Assembly (NCBI RefSeq): GCF_003814555.1
Contig: NZ_RKQN01000002.1
Coordinates: forward strand, 1 to 64,000
DNA from: Vulcaniibacterium tengchongense
GTDB taxonomy: Bacteria; Pseudomonadota; Gammaproteobacteria; Xanthomonadales; Xanthomonadaceae
Direction: 5' to 3'
DNA length: 64,000 nucleotides
Positions 15,336-25,334 of this stretch are shown here, piece after piece. The position numbers and the translations under genes were made by a program. Positions within the stretch are counted from its first letter, which is position 1. The number at the start of each line of letters is the position of its first letter. The notes below the pieces were generated by a model. It was not told the origin of the DNA and ran no database searches. It was given only the letters and a program-made list of their open reading frames with translations.

Positions 15336-15953
15336 TCACCGTTCGCCGCGGAAGCGCCCCTCGCGCAGGAAATGGACCGCCTGCCCCGCCGCCTCGGCCG
15401 AGAGCAGCAGGCCGCTGTGGCTGGCGCGGACCACGACGTGGTCGGCGATGCCGGGCAGGCGGGTCTCGGCCACCGCCACGGTGCCGTCGTGCGGGCCGTC
15501 GAAGCGGCCGAACAGCGACCCCAGGCCGACCGGCACCGCGCCGGCGACCACCCCGACCTCGGCCGGCCCCTCCCAGCGGCGGCAGCCGCCGCACAGCAGG
15601 CCGGCGCTGCGGCCCAGGGGCCAGCCGGTCAGGCGGCGCCCGGCCAGCGCCCGCGCCGCCGCGCTGCCGCACAGCGGCGAGCCGAGGCAGACCACCCGCC
15701 GCACCGGCACCCCCGGCGCGCGGCGCAGCGCCTCCAGCGCGAACAGCCCGCCCAGGCTGTGGGCGAGCACCGCCTCGGCGCCGCGCAGGCGCTCGGCCAG
15801 CGCCGGCAGCACCCGCTCCGGCCCGCCGCGCGCGGCGGGATAGGCGAAGACCTCGGTCGCCCAGCCGGCCGCCCGCAGGCGCGCGCCGAGCCAGCGCATC
15901 GACGCGCCGGGCATCCAGATGCCGTGCAGCAGCAGGACGCGGGGGGCGCTCAT
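15336..15953 (-). CDS. Small alpha/beta-hydrolase (esterase/lipase-like)
   Basis: A 205-residue alpha/beta-hydrolase. [14 protein letters not shown] is the first strand and oxyanion loop. [16 protein letters not shown] holds the nucleophile serine (an AHSLGG form of GxSxG). The acid is probably the Asp in GPHDGTVAV and the base the His in ASHSGLLLS. This set resembles cytosolic PGAP1/lipase-like hydrolases. No signal peptide. The substrate is unknown. It is on the same strand as the RND operon, about 220 bases downstream of it. The start was chosen at the beginning of the hydrolase fold. Confidence 0.8.
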
Positions 15954-16173
15954 GCCCTGTCCCGCGGGGGCTCGCCCGGCCGGCGCTGGCGCATGCGGGA
16001 AGCGGAATGGGGTGTCATCGCCGGTCCGTCGCCTGGGTCGCCGCCCACGGTATGCGTCACCGTGCAGGCGGGCAACGGCAGCCGCGATGCGGGGACCGGC
16101 CGCTCGGGGAGGCCGACGCGGCACGCACCGCCGGACTGCCCCGCGGGGCGGGCGCGGAGCGCGGCCGGCGCGC

Positions 16174-17328
16174 TCAGGAACGCGCGCCGGCCTTCCGGGC
16201 GCCGGCGTCCGCCGGCGGCGCGACCCGCACCCGGCTGCCCTCGCGCAGCAGCGCGTTCGGCGCCAGCACCACGGTGTCGCCGGCCGCGAGGCCGTCGAGC
16301 ACCTCGACCTGGTCGCCCAGATTGCGGCCGAGCACCACCTTGCGGAAGCCGATCGTCGCGTCCGCGCCGAGCCGGGCGACGCGCGCGCCGCCGGCGTCCT
16401 GCAGCACCGCGGAGACCGGCAGCAGCAGGGTCGTCGCGGCCTGCGGCAGGCGCAGCGCGACTTCGCCGACCATGCCGGCGGGGATCGCCTGCTCCGGGTT
16501 GGGCAGGCGCAGCTCCACGCGCATGCCGCCGACGTCCTCGGAAATGCTCTGCGCGGTGCGCACGACCTCGGCGCGGAAGCGCCGCCCGGGCAGCTCGGGG
16601 AAGCTGACGTCCGCCTGCACGCCCGGGCGCACCTGCAACGCCACCCGCTGCGGCACGTCGACCACGATCCGCAGCGGGTCGAGCGCGTTGAGCGCGAACA
16701 GCGGCTGGCTGCTGGCCGAATCGCCGACCACGCGGTCGCCGCGCTCGACGTAGCGCGCCGCGATCACCCCCGCGAACGGCGCGCGCACGCGCTGGAACGC
16801 CTGCCGCTCGCGCGCGCTGGCCAGCCGCGCCTCGGCCGCGGCGACCGCCGCCTCGGCGGCCTGGCGATTGGCGCTGCGCTCGCTGTACAGCTCCTGCGAG
16901 ATCGCGCCGGAGCGCACCAGGACCTCGGCGCGCTGGTAGTGGGCGCGCGCCAGGGCGAGCTCGGCGCGGGCCCGCTCGAGCTCCGCCTGGGCCTGGCGCA
17001 CCTCCTGGTCCACCTCCGGCGCCGAGATCACCGCCAGCACCTGGCCGGCCTCGACCCGGTCGCCGAGGTCGGCGTGGCGCTCGCCGACGAAGCCGGTCGC
17101 GCGCGGGTAGATCTGCGCCGACTCGCCGGGCGCGGTGCGCGCGGGCAGGCGCAACTCGTAGGAATCGCCGGCGGGGCGGGCCTGCGCGGTGCGCACCTCC
17201 GGCAGCGGCGCGGCGGCCGCCTGCTCGGCGTGGCCGCGGCCGCAACCGGCCGCGGCGGCCAGCGCCGCCGCCAGCAGCAGCGGCGAAGCGCCGCGGGCGG
17301 AAAGGAAGGAACGGACAAGGGGGGTCAT
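16174..17328 (-). CDS. RND efflux periplasmic adaptor (membrane fusion lipoprotein)
   Basis: A 384-residue membrane fusion protein linking an RND pump to an outer-membrane channel. The N-terminus is a lipoprotein signal ending AAAAGC. A biotinyl-lipoyl half (GFVGERHADLGDRVEAGQVLAVI), an alpha-helical hairpin (QAQAELERARAELALARAHYQRAEVL), the second lipoyl half (VRAPFAGVIAARYVERGD) and beta-barrel domains follow. Its start overlaps the stop of the pump gene (4 bases), so both are coupled. No outer-membrane factor gene is nearby, so a channel encoded elsewhere must serve. Confidence 0.93.
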   Translation of the reverse strand: MTPLVRSFLSARGASPLLLAAALAAAAGCGRGHAEQAAAAPLPEVRTAQARPAGDSYELRLPARTAPGESAQIYPRATGFVGERHADLGDRVEAGQVLAVISAPEVDQEVRQAQAELERARAELALARAHYQRAEVLVRSGAISQELYSERSANRQAAEAAVAAAEARLASARERQAFQRVRAPFAGVIAARYVERGDRVVGDSASSQPLFALNALDPLRIVVDVPQRVALQVRPGVQADVSFPELPGRRFRAEVVRTAQSISEDVGGMRVELRLPNPEQAIPAGMVGEVALRLPQAATTLLLPVSAVLQDAGGARVARLGADATIGFRKVVLGRNLGDQVEVLDGLAAGDTVVLAPNALLREGSRVRVAPPADAGARKAGARS

Positions 17329-20300
17329 AGCGGGACTCCAGCGCCGGCGGGCGCGGCCACGGGCGCCGGCTGCGCCGCGCGCAGCCGGCCGCGGCGCGCG
17401 AGCACGGCAAGAAGGGAAGGAACCAGCACGAGCGTGGCCGGGGTGCCGAACAGCAGGCCGCCGATCACCGCGCGGCCGAGCGGCGCGTTCTGCTCGCCGC
17501 CCTCGCCCAGGCCCAGCGCCATCGGCACGATGCCCAGCACCATCGCGCTGGCGGTCATCAGCACCGGGCGCAGGCGCACCGCGGCGGCCTCGTACGCGGC
17601 GATCTCCGGATCGTGCCCGGCGGCGACCAGGTCGCGCACGAAGCTGGTCACCAGCACGCTGTTCGCGGTCGACACCCCGATCACCATCATCACGCCCATC
17701 AGCGCCGGCACGCTCAGCGGCGTGCCGGTGAGGAACAGCGCGAAGGCGGCGCCGGAAACCGCCAGCGGCAGGCCGGACATCGCCGCCAGCGGCAGGATCC
17801 AGGACTGGAAGTTCACCACCAGCACCAGGAACACCAGCACCGCGGCCATGGCCAGGCCGCCGGCCAACTCGCCGTAGGCGCTCTGCATCTCGCCGGCCTG
17901 GCCGGCGATCTCGATCCGGTTGCCCGGCTTCAGCCGCGGCTGCAGCCCGTCGACGATCGCGCTCAGGCGGTCGTAGACGGAGCCCAGGTCGGTGCCCTGG
18001 ACGTTGGCCAGCACGCTGAGCGTCGGCGCCAGGGTGGTGCGGCCGATGCTCGCCGGCACGCCGCGCGGGGTCACGGTGGCGACATTGCGCAGCAGCACCG
18101 TGCGGCCGTCCGTGCCGACCCGCAGCGGCGTGTTGAGCAGGGTCTCCACGCTGTCCAGGTCGGCGATCGGCGCCTGCACCTGCACGGTGTAGGACTGCGC
18201 GCTGGCGCGATCCACCCAGTACACCGGCGTCACCGTGCCGGCCGAGCCGAGCACCGCCAGCACGGCCCGGCTCGCGTCCTGCGAGGTGATGCCGAGCTGC
18301 GCGGCGCGGCTGCGGTCGATGCTGACCTGGTACTCGGGCAGGTCCAGCACCTGGCGCAAGGTCACGTCGACGGCGCCGGGCACCGCGCGCAGGCGCGATT
18401 CGATCTCGCGCGCCGTGGCCAGGTTGCCGGCGACGTCGCGGCCGGTCACCCGCACCTCGAACGCGCCCACCGCGGCACCGGCCAGGGTGCGGCTGGTCGC
18501 GTCCGGCGGCCGCTCGAACAGCTTCACGTCGGGGAACTTCTCGGCGACGCGCCGGCGGATCTGCGCCAGGTAGTCGGCGCTGGGCGCGTGCGGCGGGCGC
18601 AACTGCAGCATCACCTCGGCCTCGAACGAGCCGACCACCGCGCTGTCGACCATCGCCAGGTTCACCGGGTCGGGGGTGCCGATCTGCTCGTAGATCGTCT
18701 GCAGCTCCTCGGCCGGGACGATCTGGCGGATCTCGCGCTGGATCTCGGCCAGGCGCGCCGCGGTCTGCTCCAGGCGCGTGCCGGACGGCAGCCGCACCTG
18801 CAGGCGGATCTGCCCGGCGTCGACCTGCGGGAAGTACTCGCGCCCGAGCAGCGCCGCCGACAGCGCCCCCAGCCCGAGCAGCGCGAACGCCGCCAGCGCC
18901 AGCACGCCGCCGTGGTGGCCGAGGCGCTCGAGCAGCGCGTGGTGGCGCTCGCGCAGCCGCTCCAGCGCGTGCTCGACCCGGTGGTTGACCGCCAGCAGCG
19001 CGCGCTCGAACGCCCGGCGCGGTTGGCGGCGGCTCTCGATGTCCGCCGGCAGCAGCATCGCCGCCAGCACCGGGATCAGCGTGCGCGAGAGCAGGAACGA
19101 GGCCGCCATCGCGAAGATCACCGCCAGCGCCAGCGGCGTGAACACCCAGGCCGATAGCCCCGTCATCAGCAGGATCGGCGTCAGCACGATGCAGATCGAC
19201 ACCGTCGACACGAACTCGGGGAACACCACTTCCCGGGCGCTGTCGAGGATCGCGGTGGGCACGTCCTTGCCGAGGGCGATGTTGCGGTTGGTGTTCTCCA
19301 CGTCGACCACCGCGTTGTCGACCAGGATGCCGATCGCCAGCGCCAGCCCGCCCAGGGTCATCACGTTGAAGGTGTAGCCCAGCAGGTACAGCATCGCCAC
19401 CGAGGCCAGCAGCGCCAGCGGGATCGCCGCCAGCACGATCAGGCTGGAGCGCCACGAGCCGAGGAACACCAGCACCACGAACGCGACCAGCAGGCCGACG
19501 ATCACCGCCTCGTGGCGGATCGAGCCGATCGCGTTGTCGACGAACACCGACTGGTCGAAGATCGGTTCGATGCGCATGCCCGGCGGCGCCGAGGCGACGA
19601 TCTCCGGCAGCCGCGCGCGCACCTCGCGCACGATCTGCACCGCCGACGCGCCGCCGAGCTTGATCAGCGCCACCGAGACCGCGCTGGCGCCGTCCATGCG
19701 CGCGACGTTGGTCTGCAGCGCGGCGCCGTCGCGCACCGAGGCCACGTCGCGCACGTAGATCACGTTGCCGCCGCGACTGGCGATCGGCAGGTCGAGGAAG
19801 CCGGACGCGTTCTCCGGGCTGGTCTCCAGCGCGATCTGCAGCTCGCGCGCGCCCTCGCGGATGCTGCCGGACGGCAGGGTCGGGCTGCCGCGCTCCAGCG
19901 CCGCGGTCACGTCGGCGGGTGTCAGGCCGTAGGTCTGCAGCGCGCGCGGGTTGAGGTCGACCATGATCTGCCGCGCCGCGCCGCCGTACGGCAGGGTCAT
20001 GCGGATGCCGGGGATGGTCTGGATCTGCGAACGCAACTGCAGGCGTGCGTAGTCGTACAGCTGGGCCTCGGTCAGCGAATCCGAGGACAGCACCAGCTGC
20101 AGCACCGGCGTGCTGGAGACGTTGTTGCGGATCACCAGCGGCGGCGAGGTGCCGGGCGGCATCCGGCGCAGGATGGTCTGCGACACCGCGGTGATCTGCC
20201 CCAGCGCGCGCTCCAGGCTGACGCCGGGCTGGAAATCGATGCGCACGACCGCCGCGCCGTTGAGCGTGGTCGAGCTGACCTCCTTGAGGTCGTCGACGGT

Positions 20301-20519
20301 GTTGAGGATCGCGGCCTCGGAGAACGAGGTGATCTTGGCCGCCATCTCCGCCGCCGGCAGGCCGCTGTAGGTCCACACCAGGTTGATCGAGGGGATGCCG
20401 ACCTCGGGCAGGATGTCGGTCGGCATGCGCCGCGCGGCCAGCGTGCCGAACAGCAGGATCAGGATGGCCAGCACCCCGATCGTGTAACGGCGCGACAGCG
20501 CGTATCGGACGATCCACAT
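17325..20519 (-). CDS. RND family efflux transporter permease subunit
   Basis: A 1064-residue inner-membrane proton-driven exporter with the usual RND layout: first membrane helix, periplasmic porter loop, helices 2-6, a duplicate loop, helices 8-12. The TM4 proton-relay block reads GILVDNAVVDVENT (about residue 400), with Asp-Asn where AcrB has Asp-Asp. The TM10 block reads GVSTANSVLV, without the lysine of AcrB. It therefore belongs to a sub-branch distinct from AcrB/MexB, and the substrate cannot be predicted. The gene is first in a two-gene operon divergent from an AraC-family regulator. Confidence 0.92.
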   Translation of the reverse strand: MWIVRYALSRRYTIGVLAILILLFGTLAARRMPTDILPEVGIPSINLVWTYSGLPAAEMAAKITSFSEAAILNTVDDLKEVSSTTLNGAAVVRIDFQPGVSLERALGQITAVSQTILRRMPPGTSPPLVIRNNVSSTPVLQLVLSSDSLTEAQLYDYARLQLRSQIQTIPGIRMTLPYGGAARQIMVDLNPRALQTYGLTPADVTAALERGSPTLPSGSIREGARELQIALETSPENASGFLDLPIASRGGNVIYVRDVASVRDGAALQTNVARMDGASAVSVALIKLGGASAVQIVREVRARLPEIVASAPPGMRIEPIFDQSVFVDNAIGSIRHEAVIVGLLVAFVVLVFLGSWRSSLIVLAAIPLALLASVAMLYLLGYTFNVMTLGGLALAIGILVDNAVVDVENTNRNIALGKDVPTAILDSAREVVFPEFVSTVSICIVLTPILLMTGLSAWVFTPLALAVIFAMAASFLLSRTLIPVLAAMLLPADIESRRQPRRAFERALLAVNHRVEHALERLRERHHALLERLGHHGGVLALAAFALLGLGALSAALLGREYFPQVDAGQIRLQVRLPSGTRLEQTAARLAEIQREIRQIVPAEELQTIYEQIGTPDPVNLAMVDSAVVGSFEAEVMLQLRPPHAPSADYLAQIRRRVAEKFPDVKLFERPPDATSRTLAGAAVGAFEVRVTGRDVAGNLATAREIESRLRAVPGAVDVTLRQVLDLPEYQVSIDRSRAAQLGITSQDASRAVLAVLGSAGTVTPVYWVDRASAQSYTVQVQAPIADLDSVETLLNTPLRVGTDGRTVLLRNVATVTPRGVPASIGRTTLAPTLSVLANVQGTDLGSVYDRLSAIVDGLQPRLKPGNRIEIAGQAGEMQSAYGELAGGLAMAAVLVFLVLVVNFQSWILPLAAMSGLPLAVSGAAFALFLTGTPLSVPALMGVMMVIGVSTANSVLVTSFVRDLVAAGHDPEIAAYEAAAVRLRPVLMTASAMVLGIVPMALGLGEGGEQNAPLGRAVIGGLLFGTPATLVLVPSLLAVLARRGRLRAAQPAPVAAPAGAGVPL

Positions 20520-20638
20520 GGATTGGCGCTCCGGGGGGGAGGACGCCGGGGGGCCGGCGCAGGGGAACGCGCCGCCGCGCCGCGGGCCGGAGCTCGGCTG
20601 CGCGACGGCGGGGACGGTCGCATCCTCAGAGAGCGCCC

Positions 20639-20669
20639 ACGTTAGGCGCGGCGCGGCCGCCGGCGTTAG
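20639..20669. promoter_or_regulatory. Candidate operator between RND operon and AraC-type gene
   Basis: In the 258-bp divergent gap, CGTTAGGC and CGTTAGCC occur as direct repeats about 24 bases apart (starting near 20640 and 20664). AraC-family activators usually bind direct half-sites, so this is a possible binding site. Weak evidence: only two short copies. Confidence 0.25.
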
Positions 20670-20777
20670 CCCATTGCTGCCGTATGCTTGCCCGATCCTG
20701 CAAATCGAAAGTTCCGGCCGCGCCGCGGGCGGCCGGCCTGCCGATAATCCGGGCGAACCGGCAGGAGGCGCAACGCC

Positions 20778-21719
20778 ATGAGCCTACTGAGTCCTTCCGA
20801 AACCATCGCGCAACAATCGCTCACCGCGCCGCAGGCGGAGCTGGCCGACCGGATTGCCCGATCGACCCCGGGCGACGGCATCCACCCGACCGCCCTGCCG
20901 CAACTGCAGCTGGTCCGCTGCAGCCGGCCGACGCCGTGCACGCCGAACGTCTTCGAGCCGCGCCTGTGCATCGTGGTGCAGGGCAGCAAGATCGCCCTGC
21001 TCGGCGACCAGGTCTACCACTACGACCCGCTCAACTACCTGGTGGTGTCGATGACCCTGCCGATGATGGGCCAGGTGGTCGAGGCCACGCCGGAGAAGCC
21101 GTACCTGTGCCTGCGCCTGGACATCGAGCCGGAGCAGATCGCCGGCCTGCTGCTCGACACCGGCGCCCAGGCCGGCGCCTCGCCCGGCGCCGGCTCGGCG
21201 CGCGCGGCGTACGCGGCGCGGGTGACGCCGGCGCTGCTCGACGCGGTGCTGCGGCTGATGCGCCTGCTCGACGAACCGGAGGACCTGCCGGTGCTGGCGC
21301 CGATGGCGATGCGCGAGATCTTCTACCGGGTGCTGCTCGGCGACCTCGGCCACCACCTGCGCGCGGTCGCGATGCACGACAGCCGCCCGCAACGCATCGC
21401 CAAGGCCGTGGAACTGCTGCGCCAGCGCTACCTGGAACCGCTGCGCATCGAGGAGCTGGCGCGCTCGGTGCACATGAGCGTGTCCTCGCTGCACCACAAC
21501 TTCAAGGCCGCCACCACGATGTCGCCGCTGCAGTACCAGAAGCAGCTGCGCCTGCACGAGGCGCGCCGGCTGATGCTCACTGAGGGCCTGGAGGCCAGCG
21601 CGGCCGCGCACCGCGTCGGCTACGAGAGCCCGTCGCAGTTCAGCCGCGAATACAAGCGCCTGTTCGGCGCGCCGCCGCGCGCGGAGATCGCCCAGATCAG
21701 GGCCGCCGCGGCGGGTTGA
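20778..21719 (+). CDS. AraC-family transcriptional regulator
   Basis: A 313-residue regulator with an N-terminal AraC_N-type ligand domain (FEPRLCIVVQGSKIALLGDQVYHYDPLNYLVVS) and two C-terminal helix-turn-helix motifs (IEELARSVHMSVSSLHHNFKAAT and ASAAAHRVGYESPSQFSREYKRLFG). It starts about 260 bases from, and points away from, the RND efflux operon, so it is the likely local regulator; inducer unknown. A ribosome-binding site (GGAGG) precedes the ATG. Its 3' end overlaps the opposite-strand glucan synthase gene by 23 bases. Confidence 0.9.
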   Translation: MSLLSPSETIAQQSLTAPQAELADRIARSTPGDGIHPTALPQLQLVRCSRPTPCTPNVFEPRLCIVVQGSKIALLGDQVYHYDPLNYLVVSMTLPMMGQVVEATPEKPYLCLRLDIEPEQIAGLLLDTGAQAGASPGAGSARAAYAARVTPALLDAVLRLMRLLDEPEDLPVLAPMAMREIFYRVLLGDLGHHLRAVAMHDSRPQRIAKAVELLRQRYLEPLRIEELARSVHMSVSSLHHNFKAATTMSPLQYQKQLRLHEARRLMLTEGLEASAAAHRVGYESPSQFSREYKRLFGAPPRAEIAQIRAAAAG

Positions 21720-24387
21720 GCCCGGCCCGGCGCGCCGGGGGCGGGGCCGGCCGCGCCTGGTTCGGCGCTTCCGCGCGCGCGCGCGCCCCTTGGAACGCCC
21801 CGGCCCATTTCGGCGCGCTGGAAACGGGGACGTCCGCGCGGCGCTGCGACGCCTGGCGGGAGGAAAGCCACTCGCAATACAACGCCGCCGCATACGGCAG
21901 CGATTGCACCGACAGCATGCCCGCCCAGGCCAAGGTCAGCGCATCGTCGGTGCCGCGCTGCCAAAGCAGCGCCAGGATGCACAGCCATATCGCCAGGAAC
22001 AGGCCGAATTCCTCGACCACGGCCGCGCCGGCGCGCTGCGCCGGCATCCGCGCGGCGCCCTTGCCGGTGCGGCGGAACGGAAGCCGCGGCGTGAACGCGC
22101 TGCGCAGCACGGCACGCGCGATGGTATGGGTCAGGGCGAGCTCGGCGATCAGCGCGCCCGCGGTGTCGCGCCAACCCGGGCTCACGCGGCGGCGATGCAG
22201 GATCAGGCCGGACACCAGCTTCAGGCCCAGCGAGGCCGCGCCCAGGGCCGCGAACGCTTGGAACGGCAGCGAATCCCAAGCGGGCGCGAGCAGATGGCCC
22301 ACGCCGAGCGCGATCGCGCAGGCGGTGAACGCCGCGTGCGCGGCTCCGGCGAACCACGGCAGCCAGCCGGCGAGGTAGTGATAGCGCTGCGACGGGGTCA
22401 GCCCGCCGGGCCGCAGGAGCGAGGGGACATGGCGCCTGAAGATCTGCATCGCGCCGAACGCCCAGCGGAATCGCTGCGCCTTGTAGGCCGCGAAATCGTC
22501 CGGAAGCAGGCCCCGTCCGTAAACGCGGTCCACGTACAGCGCGCGGTACCCGGCCCGCTGCACCCGCAGGCCGAGTTCGGTGTCCTCGCAGATGCACCAC
22601 TCGGACCAGCCCAGCCGGTCCAGCAGCGCGCGCCGGACCATGATCAGCGTGCCGTGGACGATGATCGCGTCGCGCTCGTGGCGGTGGTGCATGCCGACGC
22701 GGAAGAAGCTCTCCGATTCCCAGTTGCACATCCGCCAGAAAGGATGCCGCGCGTATTCCCGATGCGCCTGCGGCGCCTGCACCGCGCCGACGCGGGGATC
22801 TTCGAAGTGCCCGGCCAGATCGCGCAGCCATTCCGGTCGAACCACGTAATCGCTGTCGACGATGGCGACGATTTCGGCGCGCGGGTCGGTGTGCCGCAAG
22901 GCGAAGTTCAGCGCGCCGGCCTTGAAGCCGGGCCAGTGGTCCAGATGGAAGAAGCGGAAGCGCCGGCCCAAGGCCCGGCAGCGCGCCTGCACCGGCCGCC
23001 AGACGGCTTCGTCGCGGGTGTTGTTGTCGATCACCAGCACTTCGTAGTCCGGGTAGTCGAGCCGCGCCAGGCTGTCGAGCGTCTCGATCACCACCTGCGG
23101 CGGCTCGTTGTAGCAGGGCAGGTGGATCGAGATCTTCGGCGCGAAACCGGGCCCGCTGGGACAGGGCGCGGCTTGCCTGCGCCAGCGCGGTTGCGCCAGC
23201 GTCTCCAGCAGCTCGAAGCCGCCCGCCAGCAGGTGGACGAAGGCGAACGTCTGCAGCGCGAACAGGATCGCGAACAGGAGCCAGCCCCACGCGCCCGGGT
23301 AGTAATCCCACGGCAGCGCCAGCATCCAGACGGCCGACATGAAGGCGCCCTGCAGCATCGCCAGAAACAGCCAGCGCCCCCATGGCCGCAGGTGCCGCGC
23401 GCGCAGCGCGAACAGCAGCAGGAACGGGAACGCCAGCGCGGAGGCCGACAGCGCCTTGAAGCGCACGTGCGGATCGTCCCGGACCGGCCCGCTCCAGGCG
23501 AACTTGGGTTCTCCGTCGGCGTCGAAGACGCCCCAATGCGCCCCCGCCAAGCGCTCGCCTCTGACCTTCCAAGGCTGGTCGAAGGCCTCCAGCACGTAGT
23601 ACTCCCAACCGTGCGCCTGCAGCCGCTGCAGCATGCGGCGCAGGAACACGCCCTGGTCCAACCGCGACGCCGCCGCCTCGCCCTGGGACGGACCGGCCGA
23701 AGGCCAGCCCACTTCGCCGATCACGATGCGCTTGCCGGGGAAGCGGGCCTGCAATATGCGGTACTGCGCCACCACCCGATCGACGCCGTGCGCCAGCGCG
23801 ATGCCGTCCCAATACGGCAGCAGGTGCACGACGATGAAATCGACGTGCTCGGCCAGTTCCGGATGCATCATCCAGATGTGGAAGGGCTCGGCGGTGGAGA
23901 CCGGGACGCGGAACGCGGCGCGGGCGTCGTCCAGCCGGGCGGCGAGCCGCGCCGGCGTCAGGTCGCCGCGCAACACGCTTTCGTTGCCGACCACCGCGCC
24001 GGCGATGTTGGCGTGTTCGCGGACGGCGGCGGCCAGGGCGCGCAGCTCGCGTTCGTCGGCTTTCCGGTGGCCGCTCAGCCAGGCCCCGGCGAGCACCTCG
24101 ATGCCTTCGCGCTCCAGATCGCGCGCCGCGCGCAGATCGGTCGAGGAATAGAGCCGCACCCGGCGGGTGTGCCGCGCGAGCAGCCGGACTTCGCGTTCGA
24201 TCGCATCGGCGTCGCGCCGCCCGGTCGAGTAGGCGTATCCGTGCGCCTGTCCGTCCCAGGCGGGCGCCTCCGCCGTGCGCGGCGCCGATGCCCAGGCGAC
24301 CGCGCCCAGTACGGCGAACAGCGCCGCCTCCGCGGCCGCGAGGGCGAATGCGCGCTTGCGGACAGCGGTTGTCGCGGGACGGTCCAT
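21697..24387 (-). CDS. ndvB: Bifunctional GH17-GT2 membrane beta-glucan synthase (NdvB type)
   Basis: An 896-residue protein fusing a GH17 domain to a processive GT2 glycosyltransferase, the layout of Pseudomonas NdvB, which makes cyclic beta-1,3-glucans tied to biofilm antibiotic tolerance. After a membrane anchor, the GH17 part shows the acid/base Glu in VVGNES (E136) and the nucleophile in VIGEVGWPSAG (E225). Several membrane helices precede the GT2 part with IDNNT, DSD (about 511-513), CEDTELG and the QRFRW box (Q638); more helices follow. The C-terminal about 45 residues are Ala/Arg/Pro-rich. Start at 24387 (MDRPATT) has GGACGAAG upstream; an ATG at 24429 is the alternative. The product glucan is inferred. 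Confidence 0.88.
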   Translation of the reverse strand: MDRPATTAVRKRAFALAAAEAALFAVLGAVAWASAPRTAEAPAWDGQAHGYAYSTGRRDADAIEREVRLLARHTRRVRLYSSTDLRAARDLEREGIEVLAGAWLSGHRKADERELRALAAAVREHANIAGAVVGNESVLRGDLTPARLAARLDDARAAFRVPVSTAEPFHIWMMHPELAEHVDFIVVHLLPYWDGIALAHGVDRVVAQYRILQARFPGKRIVIGEVGWPSAGPSQGEAAASRLDQGVFLRRMLQRLQAHGWEYYVLEAFDQPWKVRGERLAGAHWGVFDADGEPKFAWSGPVRDDPHVRFKALSASALAFPFLLLFALRARHLRPWGRWLFLAMLQGAFMSAVWMLALPWDYYPGAWGWLLFAILFALQTFAFVHLLAGGFELLETLAQPRWRRQAAPCPSGPGFAPKISIHLPCYNEPPQVVIETLDSLARLDYPDYEVLVIDNNTRDEAVWRPVQARCRALGRRFRFFHLDHWPGFKAGALNFALRHTDPRAEIVAIVDSDYVVRPEWLRDLAGHFEDPRVGAVQAPQAHREYARHPFWRMCNWESESFFRVGMHHRHERDAIIVHGTLIMVRRALLDRLGWSEWCICEDTELGLRVQRAGYRALYVDRVYGRGLLPDDFAAYKAQRFRWAFGAMQIFRRHVPSLLRPGGLTPSQRYHYLAGWLPWFAGAAHAAFTACAIALGVGHLLAPAWDSLPFQAFAALGAASLGLKLVSGLILHRRRVSPGWRDTAGALIAELALTHTIARAVLRSAFTPRLPFRRTGKGAARMPAQRAGAAVVEEFGLFLAIWLCILALLWQRGTDDALTLAWAGMLSVQSLPYAAALYCEWLSSRQASQRRADVPVSSAPKWAGAFQGARARAEAPNQARPAPPPARRAGLNPPRRP

Positions 24388-24510
24388 GTCTTCGTCCGGA
24401 AGCCCCCGCGAACGGCGCGCGGGCGGCACCCTTGGGGCGGCTCCACGCTAGCAGGAGCGGCGCAGGCGGGAGCGTGAACCCGATCGCTTTTCGCGAGCGG
24501 ACGGACCGGC

Positions 24511-25047
24511 TCAGCCCGACGCGGCCGCCGCCCCGTCCGGATCCCGGCGCAGGATGAACTCCAGGTCTCGCGTCTTGCCCACCGCGAAGTGGTACTGCCC
24601 TGCCCGTACGTAGCCGTGCCGGGCGTAGAAGCGCTGCGCGCCGAAGTTCTCCGACCACACGCCGATCCACAGCGTGCGCGGGCCGCCGGCGAGCAGCCAG
24701 TCCTGCGCGGCGCGGAACAGCCGCCCGCCCCAGCCGCCGTTCTGGAAGTCGCGCAGCACGTACAGTCGCTTGAGCTCGCCGTCGCCGGCGCGGACGTCGG
24801 GGTGCGGCAGGCCGCACGGCCCGGCCAGCGCGTAGCCGACCGCGCCGCGCGCGGGCGCCTCGAGCACCCAGGTCGCATACGCCGGGTCGCGCAGCAGCGC
24901 GGCCCAGGCCTCGACCGCATAGGCCTCGGCGAGGAAGGCGTGTAGGTCCTCGGGCGGGTACAGGTGGCCGAAGGTCTCGGTGAAGCAGGCCGAAGCCAGC
25001 CGCGACAGGGTCGCGGCGTCGGCGACGCCGGCGCGACGGATCTGCAT
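24511..25047 (-). CDS. GNAT family N-acetyltransferase
   Basis: A 178-residue acetyltransferase. The first strand is MQIRRAGVADAATLSRLASACF. The acetyl-CoA pyrophosphate loop lies in LYVLRDFQNGGWGGRLFRAA and the last core block is WSENFGAQRFYARHGY. The acceptor cannot be told from sequence. It starts 2 bases after the stop of the small acidic-protein gene, so the pair is probably one transcript. The frame is open far upstream because of the acidic-tail DNA, but MQIRR is where homology-like sequence begins. Confidence 0.88.
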   Translation of the reverse strand: MQIRRAGVADAATLSRLASACFTETFGHLYPPEDLHAFLAEAYAVEAWAALLRDPAYATWVLEAPARGAVGYALAGPCGLPHPDVRAGDGELKRLYVLRDFQNGGWGGRLFRAAQDWLLAGGPRTLWIGVWSENFGAQRFYARHGYVRAGQYHFAVGKTRDLEFILRRDPDGAAAASG

Positions 25048-25049
25048 GG

Positions 25050-25334
25050 CTAGCGCGCCTCCTCCTCGCCGTCTTCCTCGTCTTCGTCCTCTTCCTCGTA
25101 CTCCTCGTCCTCGCCTTCCTCGTCCTCTTCGTACTCGTAGTCGTCCTCGCCGAAGTCCTCGCCGTCCCAGCGGAACTGGCCGTCGGGGACGAAGGTCAGC
25201 GCCATCGCGCCCGGCGCGGAGCCGACACGCACCAGCCAGCCGCCGAACACGCGGGCGCGTTCGGTGATCAGGGCGGGGCCGGCGCCCACGTTGGCGAGCC
25301 TTTCCCATTGCAGGACGAACGCGTACTCGGTCAT
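25050..25334 (-). CDS. Small protein with hyperacidic C-terminal tail, unknown function
   Basis: A 94-residue protein I cannot assign to a family. Residues 1-56 look folded (MTEYAFVLQWERLANVG..., ending FVPDGQFRW). From about residue 57 to 92 it is almost only Glu and Asp with a few Tyr and Gly. The start at 25334 has a good GGAG ribosome-binding site; six more codons upstream are open. The tail is coded by a run of GAG/GAC-type codons, which on the plus strand looks like a tcctcgtc microsatellite. It is 95 bases after aspS's neighbour gap and abuts the GNAT gene. Confidence 0.72.
   Translation of the reverse strand: MTEYAFVLQWERLANVGAGPALITERARVFGGWLVRVGSAPGAMALTFVPDGQFRWDGEDFGEDDYEYEEDEEGEDEEYEEEDEDEEDGEEEAR

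Follow-up and report, generated by a model that had tools for sequence, protein, structure and literature searches.

A strongly diverged GH17-GT2 synthase of the NdvB type beside efflux genes in Vulcaniibacterium tengchongense

The synthase gene and its domains

The stretch of DNA analysed here (64,000 nucleotides from Vulcaniibacterium tengchongense, family Xanthomonadaceae; positions 1 to 64,000 of contig NZ_RKQN01000002.1, hereafter the window) carries on its minus strand, at 21697..24387, a gene for a fusion of a glycoside hydrolase family 17 (GH17) domain and a family 2 glycosyltransferase (GT2) domain that belongs to the NdvB/'Orphan' family. Its open reading frame (ORF; 24387-21697) encodes 896 amino acids, starts with ATG and has zero internal stops; it is more than a chance ORF, as shown by homologues with 40-55% identity at 89 loci (at one of these, L102, over 510 residues only) and by the AlphaFold2 model described below. 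Both domains score above their Pfam cut-offs (GH17, PF00332, 6.3e-8 and 33.0 bits against 28.2; GT2, PF13641, 2.2e-26), so that the fusion named in the original prediction is borne out as an intact gene.

Pfam matches, AlphaFold2 helices and the ranges aligned by VIA-align (45-300 and 8-850) place in one protein an N-terminal GH17 domain, membrane helices and a C-terminal GT2 domain. An AlphaFold2 helix at residues 7-33 (24289..24369, minus strand), predicted to span the membrane, is followed by the GH17 TIM-barrel (residues 45-300; 23488..24255, minus strand; delimited by VIA-align to 4wtp), in which E136 is by homology the acid/base and E225 the nucleophile. The GT2 catalytic domain (Pfam, alignment and VIA-align) covers approximately residues 413-651 (22435..23151, minus strand) and includes D454, DSD511-513, ED601-602 and QRFRW638-642. 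The AlphaFold2 model, built from the query and 51 of 79 named loci covering it (52 rows), has a mean predicted local distance difference test score (pLDDT) of 85.6 and a predicted template modelling score (pTM) of 0.78; the C-terminal tail (residues 853-896; 21700..21831, minus strand), which extends into the neighbouring araC-type gene, is modelled at pLDDT <50.

Sequence matches among solved structures include the glucanosyltransferase 4wtp for the GH17 part (5.4e-23) and the cellulose synthase BcsA for the GT2 part (1.7e-23). VIA-align superimposed the model on 4wtp with Z 32.0 (249 residues, root-mean-square deviation (rmsd) 2.0, 25% identity) and on BcsA 4p00 with Z 29.3 (509 residues, rmsd 3.6). 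The former is the GH17 beta-1,3-glucanosyltransferase RmBgt17A of Rhizomucor miehei, which shares the fold and both catalytic Glu residues and differs in being a single-domain fungal enzyme; Rhodobacter sphaeroides BcsA shares the GT2 domain and the channel helices, whereas it lacks the added GH17 domain. No structure of a GH17-GT2 enzyme was present among the matches listed (12 in one comparison, the best 50 in another). The order of helices in the model (7-33, GH17, three helices, GT2, more helices) fits a GH17 domain predicted to lie on the periplasmic side and a GT2 domain in the cytoplasm, the sides of the membrane being assigned from relatives.

Within the window, the gene order is yebC, a lipase-like gene, a membrane-fusion protein (MFP) gene and an RND transporter gene (all minus strand), araC (plus strand), and then the synthase, GNAT and aspS genes (minus strand). 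With the end of the araC-type gene at 21719 and the stop codon of the opposite-strand synthase gene reaching 21697, the two overlap tail to tail (21697..21719) by exactly the 23 nt reported earlier.

Family membership and likely product

Residues were compared in an alignment of 110 rows, consisting of the query and loci L005-L008 and L022-L130 without L054 (same protein as L006), L102 and L085 (partial) and L093 (a fused frame); L112 is cut at its start, and L009-L021, mostly one-domain matches, lie outside the alignment. Both catalytic Glu residues, both Asp residues of the DxD motif and the Gln, both Arg and the Trp of QRxRW are invariant in the 109 other family members. Among these, the middle residue of DxD is Ala in 64 and Ser in 45, and the third residue of QRxRW is Phe in 74, Tyr in 31 and another residue in four. 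In the window protein, E136 and E225 stand in the conserved GH17 motifs VGNE and EVGWPS; also kept are the GT2 motifs DNN (D454), DSD (D511, D513), CED (E601/D602) and QRFRW (Q638-W642), the gating motif F-x-x-T-x-K (F771/T774/K776), and the glycine (G579) of the motif equivalent to FFCGS. Thus, the two active sites are intact at E136, E225, DSD and QRFRW, as had been predicted.

Pseudomonas aeruginosa NdvB (WP_003082380.1) has the same architecture of GH17, membrane and GT2 parts and the same catalytic motifs, and is 42% identical to the window protein (361 of 850 columns; 58.8% in GT2 and 42.0% in GH17). Its gene (PA1163) adjoins dapE on NZ_CP131792.1, whereas the window gene has araC and GNAT as its flanks and is not beside dapE; the location next to dapE is a habit of Pseudomonas and does not define the family. 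The ndvB-dapE segment (L212, NZ_CP131792.1 323827-327702) is on an 847-kb record labelled as a conjugative P. aeruginosa plasmid.

By architecture and motifs, the window protein is a member of the GH17-GT2 'Orphan'/NdvB family, described by Spiers et al. (PMC10237404) as having this same architecture and these motifs and proposed there to synthesise cyclic beta-1,3-glucan. The 'Orphans' are characterized in that source as proteins without PilZ motifs; a Pfam search of the 896-residue protein gave no PilZ match at E<=0.1 (its tail, 853-896, being the part with pLDDT <50), another difference from BcsA. Two other glucan synthases were considered and rejected: BcsA, as the protein reached 111.5 bits with the CelA model, whose cut-off is 699.1, and OpgH/MdoH, as the curated MdoH model scored 21.7 bits against a cut-off of 419.

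In view of the 42% identity to P. aeruginosa NdvB, a beta-1,3-glucan synthase and remodelling enzyme is the best reading of the gene, its product being predicted from that homology. The original proposal of NdvB-like synthesis and remodelling of a beta-glucan is therefore supported by the NdvB homology, the conserved catalytic residues and the folds matching 4wtp and BcsA. There is precedent for such a product, a beta-1,3-glucan that is cyclic in P. aeruginosa, among the GH17-GT2 Orphan/NdvB synthases. The GH17 domains of Glt1 and Glt3 are reported to transglycosylate beta-1,3-glucan (PMC10237404), and Glt1, Glt3 and Glt7 are described as GH17-GT2 proteins with transglycosylase activity (PMC11005184). 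Bradyrhizobium Glt20, which we liken to the window protein by description and not by sequence, is likewise a proteobacterial GH17 beta-1,3-glucan transglycosylase, but one that carries out beta-1,6 elongation or branching (PMC11005184). Deletion of ndvB is reported to lower bactericidal concentrations in biofilm, not in planktonic cells (PMC3634840).

We consider it likely that the gene encodes an NdvB-type synthase that makes and remodels a beta-glucan, and that its acquisition was separate from that of the efflux genes. Observed directly are the two domains with their catalytic residues, the folds predicted for them and the place of the protein in the family; donor sugar, linkage, cyclisation and periplasmic location are taken from characterised relatives. 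In such an enzyme, the cytoplasmic GT2 domain would extend a beta-glucan from UDP-glucose and the growing chain would pass through that domain's own membrane channel. The periplasmic GH17 domain would then cleave beta-1,3 bonds and transfer the fragment to another glucan end or to the same chain, and the outcome would be a short, possibly cyclic, beta-1,3-glucan.

Several points weigh against this assignment. The case is built on sequence and predicted structure. The linkage is not determined by the GT2 sequence, and Spiers et al. (PMC10237404) state that they know no definitive feature. At the position that we align with residue 559, cellulose synthases have Glu or else Asp according to Oehme et al. 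(PMC6821405), and Arg is the only residue that these authors report there for curdlan and mixed-linkage synthases; residue 559 is Glu in the window protein and Lys in P. aeruginosa NdvB, and the 109 relatives have Asp in 50, Ala in 23, Glu in 13, Arg in 10 and Lys in four.

Divergence of the window copy

The window protein has the longest end branch in the tree of the 110-row alignment (1.12 against a median of 0.13). It again has the longest one (1.53 against a median of 0.31) in a mixture-model tree of 45 rows, made up of 43 of the 109 loci, hand-picked for spread, P. aeruginosa NdvB and the query. Most of this divergence is in the membrane/GT2 part: when the parts are taken separately, the branch is 1.52 for the membrane/GT2 part (median 0.20) and 0.98 for GH17 alone (median 0.28), the latter not being flagged as long. 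In a leave-one-out count made for each row, the window protein departs at 10 of the 112 columns that are near-invariant; the runner-up has five such departures and the median row none. By these measures, the window copy is the most diverged of the 110 rows, which is a new observation of this study.

The ten departures are D66E, R292G, W308V, G560S, Q577V, M581L, T582I, F671Y, Y731H and G763S. Three of them turn the family-typical IQHGTMT beside the GT2 acceptor site into IVHGTLI (residues 576-582; 22642..22662, minus strand), where P. aeruginosa NdvB has IEHGTMT. The 109 relatives have Gln in 108 cases and Glu in one at position 577, and Met and Thr in all 109 at positions 581 and 582, respectively. 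Spiers et al. (PMC10237404) describe FFCGS as the terminal-glucose site and equate it with IQHGT in SBW25, the glycine alone being common with BcsA; thus Q577V is inside the motif equated with FFCGS, which in BcsA aligns with IVHGT of the window protein, and M581L and T582I are just past it. In the GH17 domain, the beta1-alpha1 loop (residues 53-66; 24190..24231, minus strand) has 14 residues, compared with 24 in 107 of the 110 rows, and is 10 residues shorter than in P. aeruginosa NdvB. Residue 194 is Asp in the window protein, Glu in 92 and Asn in 14 of the 109 relatives, and corresponds to E198 of P. aeruginosa NdvB and to E158 of RmBgt17A, which is reported to contact the +2 acceptor sugar.

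This divergence could mean that constraint on the synthase is relaxed and its function is being lost, as might be suggested by the longest branch of 110 rows, the 10 changed near-invariant columns and the sparseness of the gene in the family. We judge this to be improbable, given that the frame is open over 896 codons, the GC content at third codon positions (GC3) is 0.90 against 0.53 at second positions (GC2), all catalytic residues and 102 of the 112 near-invariant columns are kept and the predicted fold is good.

According to Oehme et al. (PMC6821405), many of the residues that differentiate linkages lie at RsBcsA 295-322, which we aligned with window residues 555-582. Four of the ten changes fall into this stretch, which holds 15 of the 112 columns (P=0.028; 0.025 and 0.011 at looser thresholds); as the comparison is post hoc, the enrichment is therefore treated as weak and as a hint only. 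These four changes (G560S, Q577V, M581L and T582I), together with the fact that the closest solved structures to the GT2 domain are cellulose synthases, would suit a GT2 domain that makes another main chain (beta-1,4 or of mixed linkage) with the GH17 domain trimming or branching that chain. We give this alternative little credence: besides the low CelA score and the weakness of the enrichment, Ala321, which aligns with M581, is judged unlikely to matter by Oehme et al. (PMC6821405), and the GH17 domains of characterised relatives are reported to act on beta-1,3-glucan (PMC10237404, PMC11005184).

Synthesis of an NdvB-type beta-glucan thus remains our preferred reading, within which the unusual divergence of the GH17 loop and the GT2 acceptor site means that the product may be of another length or linkage than in Pseudomonas. 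The stronger form of this idea, that IVHGTLI and the shortened loop of an inserted, fast-diverging synthase give a glucan of other linkage, size or ring form than the Pseudomonas cyclic beta-1,3-glucan, we regard as doubtful. If true, it would make the divergent copy a natural mutant for finding the linkage-setting residues of the GH17-GT2 family. For the question of how GT2 enzymes choose beta-1,3 over beta-1,4 links, a copy that has all catalytic residues and a broken acceptor-site motif offers a ready comparison.

Phylogenetic distribution and origin

The synthase gene was found in seven of the 297 genomes of the same family and in 25 of the 274 genomes of the class that were searched, and a full-length synthase in five of 60 relatives (own genome included in each count). 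A contig scan across genomes confirmed 578 relatives, from which the 80 best were taken, and the tree members among these 80 include representatives of Rhodanobacteraceae, Zoogloeaceae and Azospirillaceae.

The synthase probably came to its place by insertion where the ends of araC and GNAT converge, in an event separate from the acquisition of the efflux genes. It looks inserted because aspS-GNAT-araC sites without it exist in six genomes of the same family, with stop-to-stop gaps of 15, 9, -4, 163, -26 and -26 nt, and because neither this araC nor the pump gene was found in the flanks examined (1.5 to ~8 kb) at 110 homologue loci. Its GC3 (0.90) is the lowest of 12 whole genes compared, the other 11 ranging from 0.92 to 0.98, and a clade of the query with five same-family homologues was rejected in a quick 45-row tree (p-AU, the P-value of the approximately unbiased test, 0.003). 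This account has its own weak points: as the query is the longest branch, a long-branch artefact, in place of transfer, may explain why it is placed outside; the gene differs little from the others in GC3; and no direct repeats that would mark the insertion borders were found within 15700-16300 or within 24300-24620, each taken alone, the araC side and edge-to-edge comparisons lying outside that search.

Vertical inheritance of a fast-evolving gene that was lost from most of the family, and not inserted, would fit its presence in six other genomes of the 297 and the unsafe placement of a long branch. In our view it has a minor, though real, chance of being correct. It has to contend with the six genomes in which the same flanks are closed up, with the rejected clade, with 12 of 17 other GNAT loci that have the lipase-like gene <=0.7 kb from GNAT and no synthase, and with the six family mates carrying the gene, around which no window neighbours were found (two of the contigs being short).

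In two same-family genomes (L147:4918-6840 and L148:2892-4862), the synthase adjoins a gene for a typA/bipA-like GTPase, named by eye, at a site other than that in the window. Elsewhere, a separate GH17-like protein is encoded just upstream of the GH17-GT2 gene (L050:3570-5270, plus strand; L024:3517-5406; L028:3622-5358); these proteins were grouped by similarity, and Pfam gave no match for them at 1e-4. At 15 of 86 loci, the synthase has beside it a conserved, small membrane-like protein of ~150 aa (L063:5177-5632, minus strand; no Pfam match at 1e-4). Two conserved genes that by eye look like tamA and tamB (L022:8644-10410 and L032:10808-14458, both plus strand) follow it at 17 and 15 of the 86 loci, respectively, many of these loci being of the Rhodanobacteraceae type.

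The efflux neighbourhood

The efflux genes noted next to the synthase are real: the window has an RND transporter gene (17325-20519, PF00873) and an MFP gene (~16174-17334, PF16576), together 16174..20519 on the minus strand, and a divergent regulator gene of the AraC_N type (20778..21719, plus strand; Pfam). We regard both the pair and the regulator as neighbours and not as parts of the synthase system. On the other side is a GNAT acetyltransferase gene (24511..25047, minus strand), which together with araC marks the empty site in relatives.

A functional unit of the synthase with the AraC/RND efflux genes, such as a co-regulated glucan shield plus pump, would be in keeping with their adjacency and the 23-nt overlap. 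The comparative data make it very improbable. No AraC, RND, MFP or GNAT gene of the window was found at any of the 110 homologue loci (E<=1e-10; flanks of 1.5 to ~8 kb, some ended by contig ends, and a few loci possibly representing one genome twice); an ABC protein encoded farther on in the window, not a neighbour in question, was matched at eight of them. Conversely, 55 of the 297 genomes had an araC match, and at the 29 best-scoring loci other than our own no synthase was seen within 1.5 kb on either side of araC, although 25 of them have an RND gene; six have GNAT and aspS directly beside araC, and at one of these six empty sites (L184) the MFP gene beside araC is present in pieces and the RND gene is missing. 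Tail-to-tail overlaps of araC with the unrelated GNAT gene (4, 26 and 26 nt) are already present in three of the six empty sites, and the simplest reading is that the synthase entered where araC and GNAT converge and that tail overlaps were already a habit of this araC. Thus, with araC beside GNAT and no synthase in six relatives and neither araC nor RND genes in the flanks examined at 110 homologue loci, the suggested functional link to the efflux operon is not upheld, which removes a tempting, unsupported connection between a glucan and a drug pump. Overall, the gene is a real, functional-looking family member with an ordinary architecture, an unusually diverged sequence and an incidental neighbourhood.

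The GNAT side was compared at 17 further loci, all from the same family except one from a same-order genome, our own locus and three weaker matches that look like paralogues not being counted. Where the lipase-like gene is within 0.7 kb of GNAT (12 loci), yebC comes next in 11; the five other loci do not have it, and one of them, G001, has an RND gene instead. In G001 (L178:8212-13656), the order is GNAT-RND-MFP-lipase with neither araC nor synthase, so that the RND-MFP pair occupies the site alone, which counts further against the functional unit and suggests that genes may come and go repeatedly between GNAT and the lipase-like gene. A promoter scan of 20400-24700 found no sigma-70 promoter, and the same region has three terminator-like sites against 1.7 expected.

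The lipase-like protein, so named by eye, is encoded at 15339-15953 (minus strand) and gave no match to Pfam at 1e-4; in much of the family its gene lies between GNAT and yebC. Between GNAT and aspS, positions 25060-25180 hold a strongly repetitive stretch that by eye codes for Asp and Glu on the minus strand.

Glucanases and other glucan genes of the host

The synthase had also been thought noteworthy as a glucan made by a host of a glucanase-secreting kind. That contrast found no support, since the genome gave no GH16 match (controls were matched in six of 14 genomes) and no GH17 match other than the window gene, a search in which none of the 14 controls was matched and which might overlook a GH17 of very divergent sequence. 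The GH64 profile gave no match, but its control was silent. Two genes of the OpgG family are present in the genome, and one of them precedes a GT2 gene that has the size of opgH and from its position presumably is opgH.

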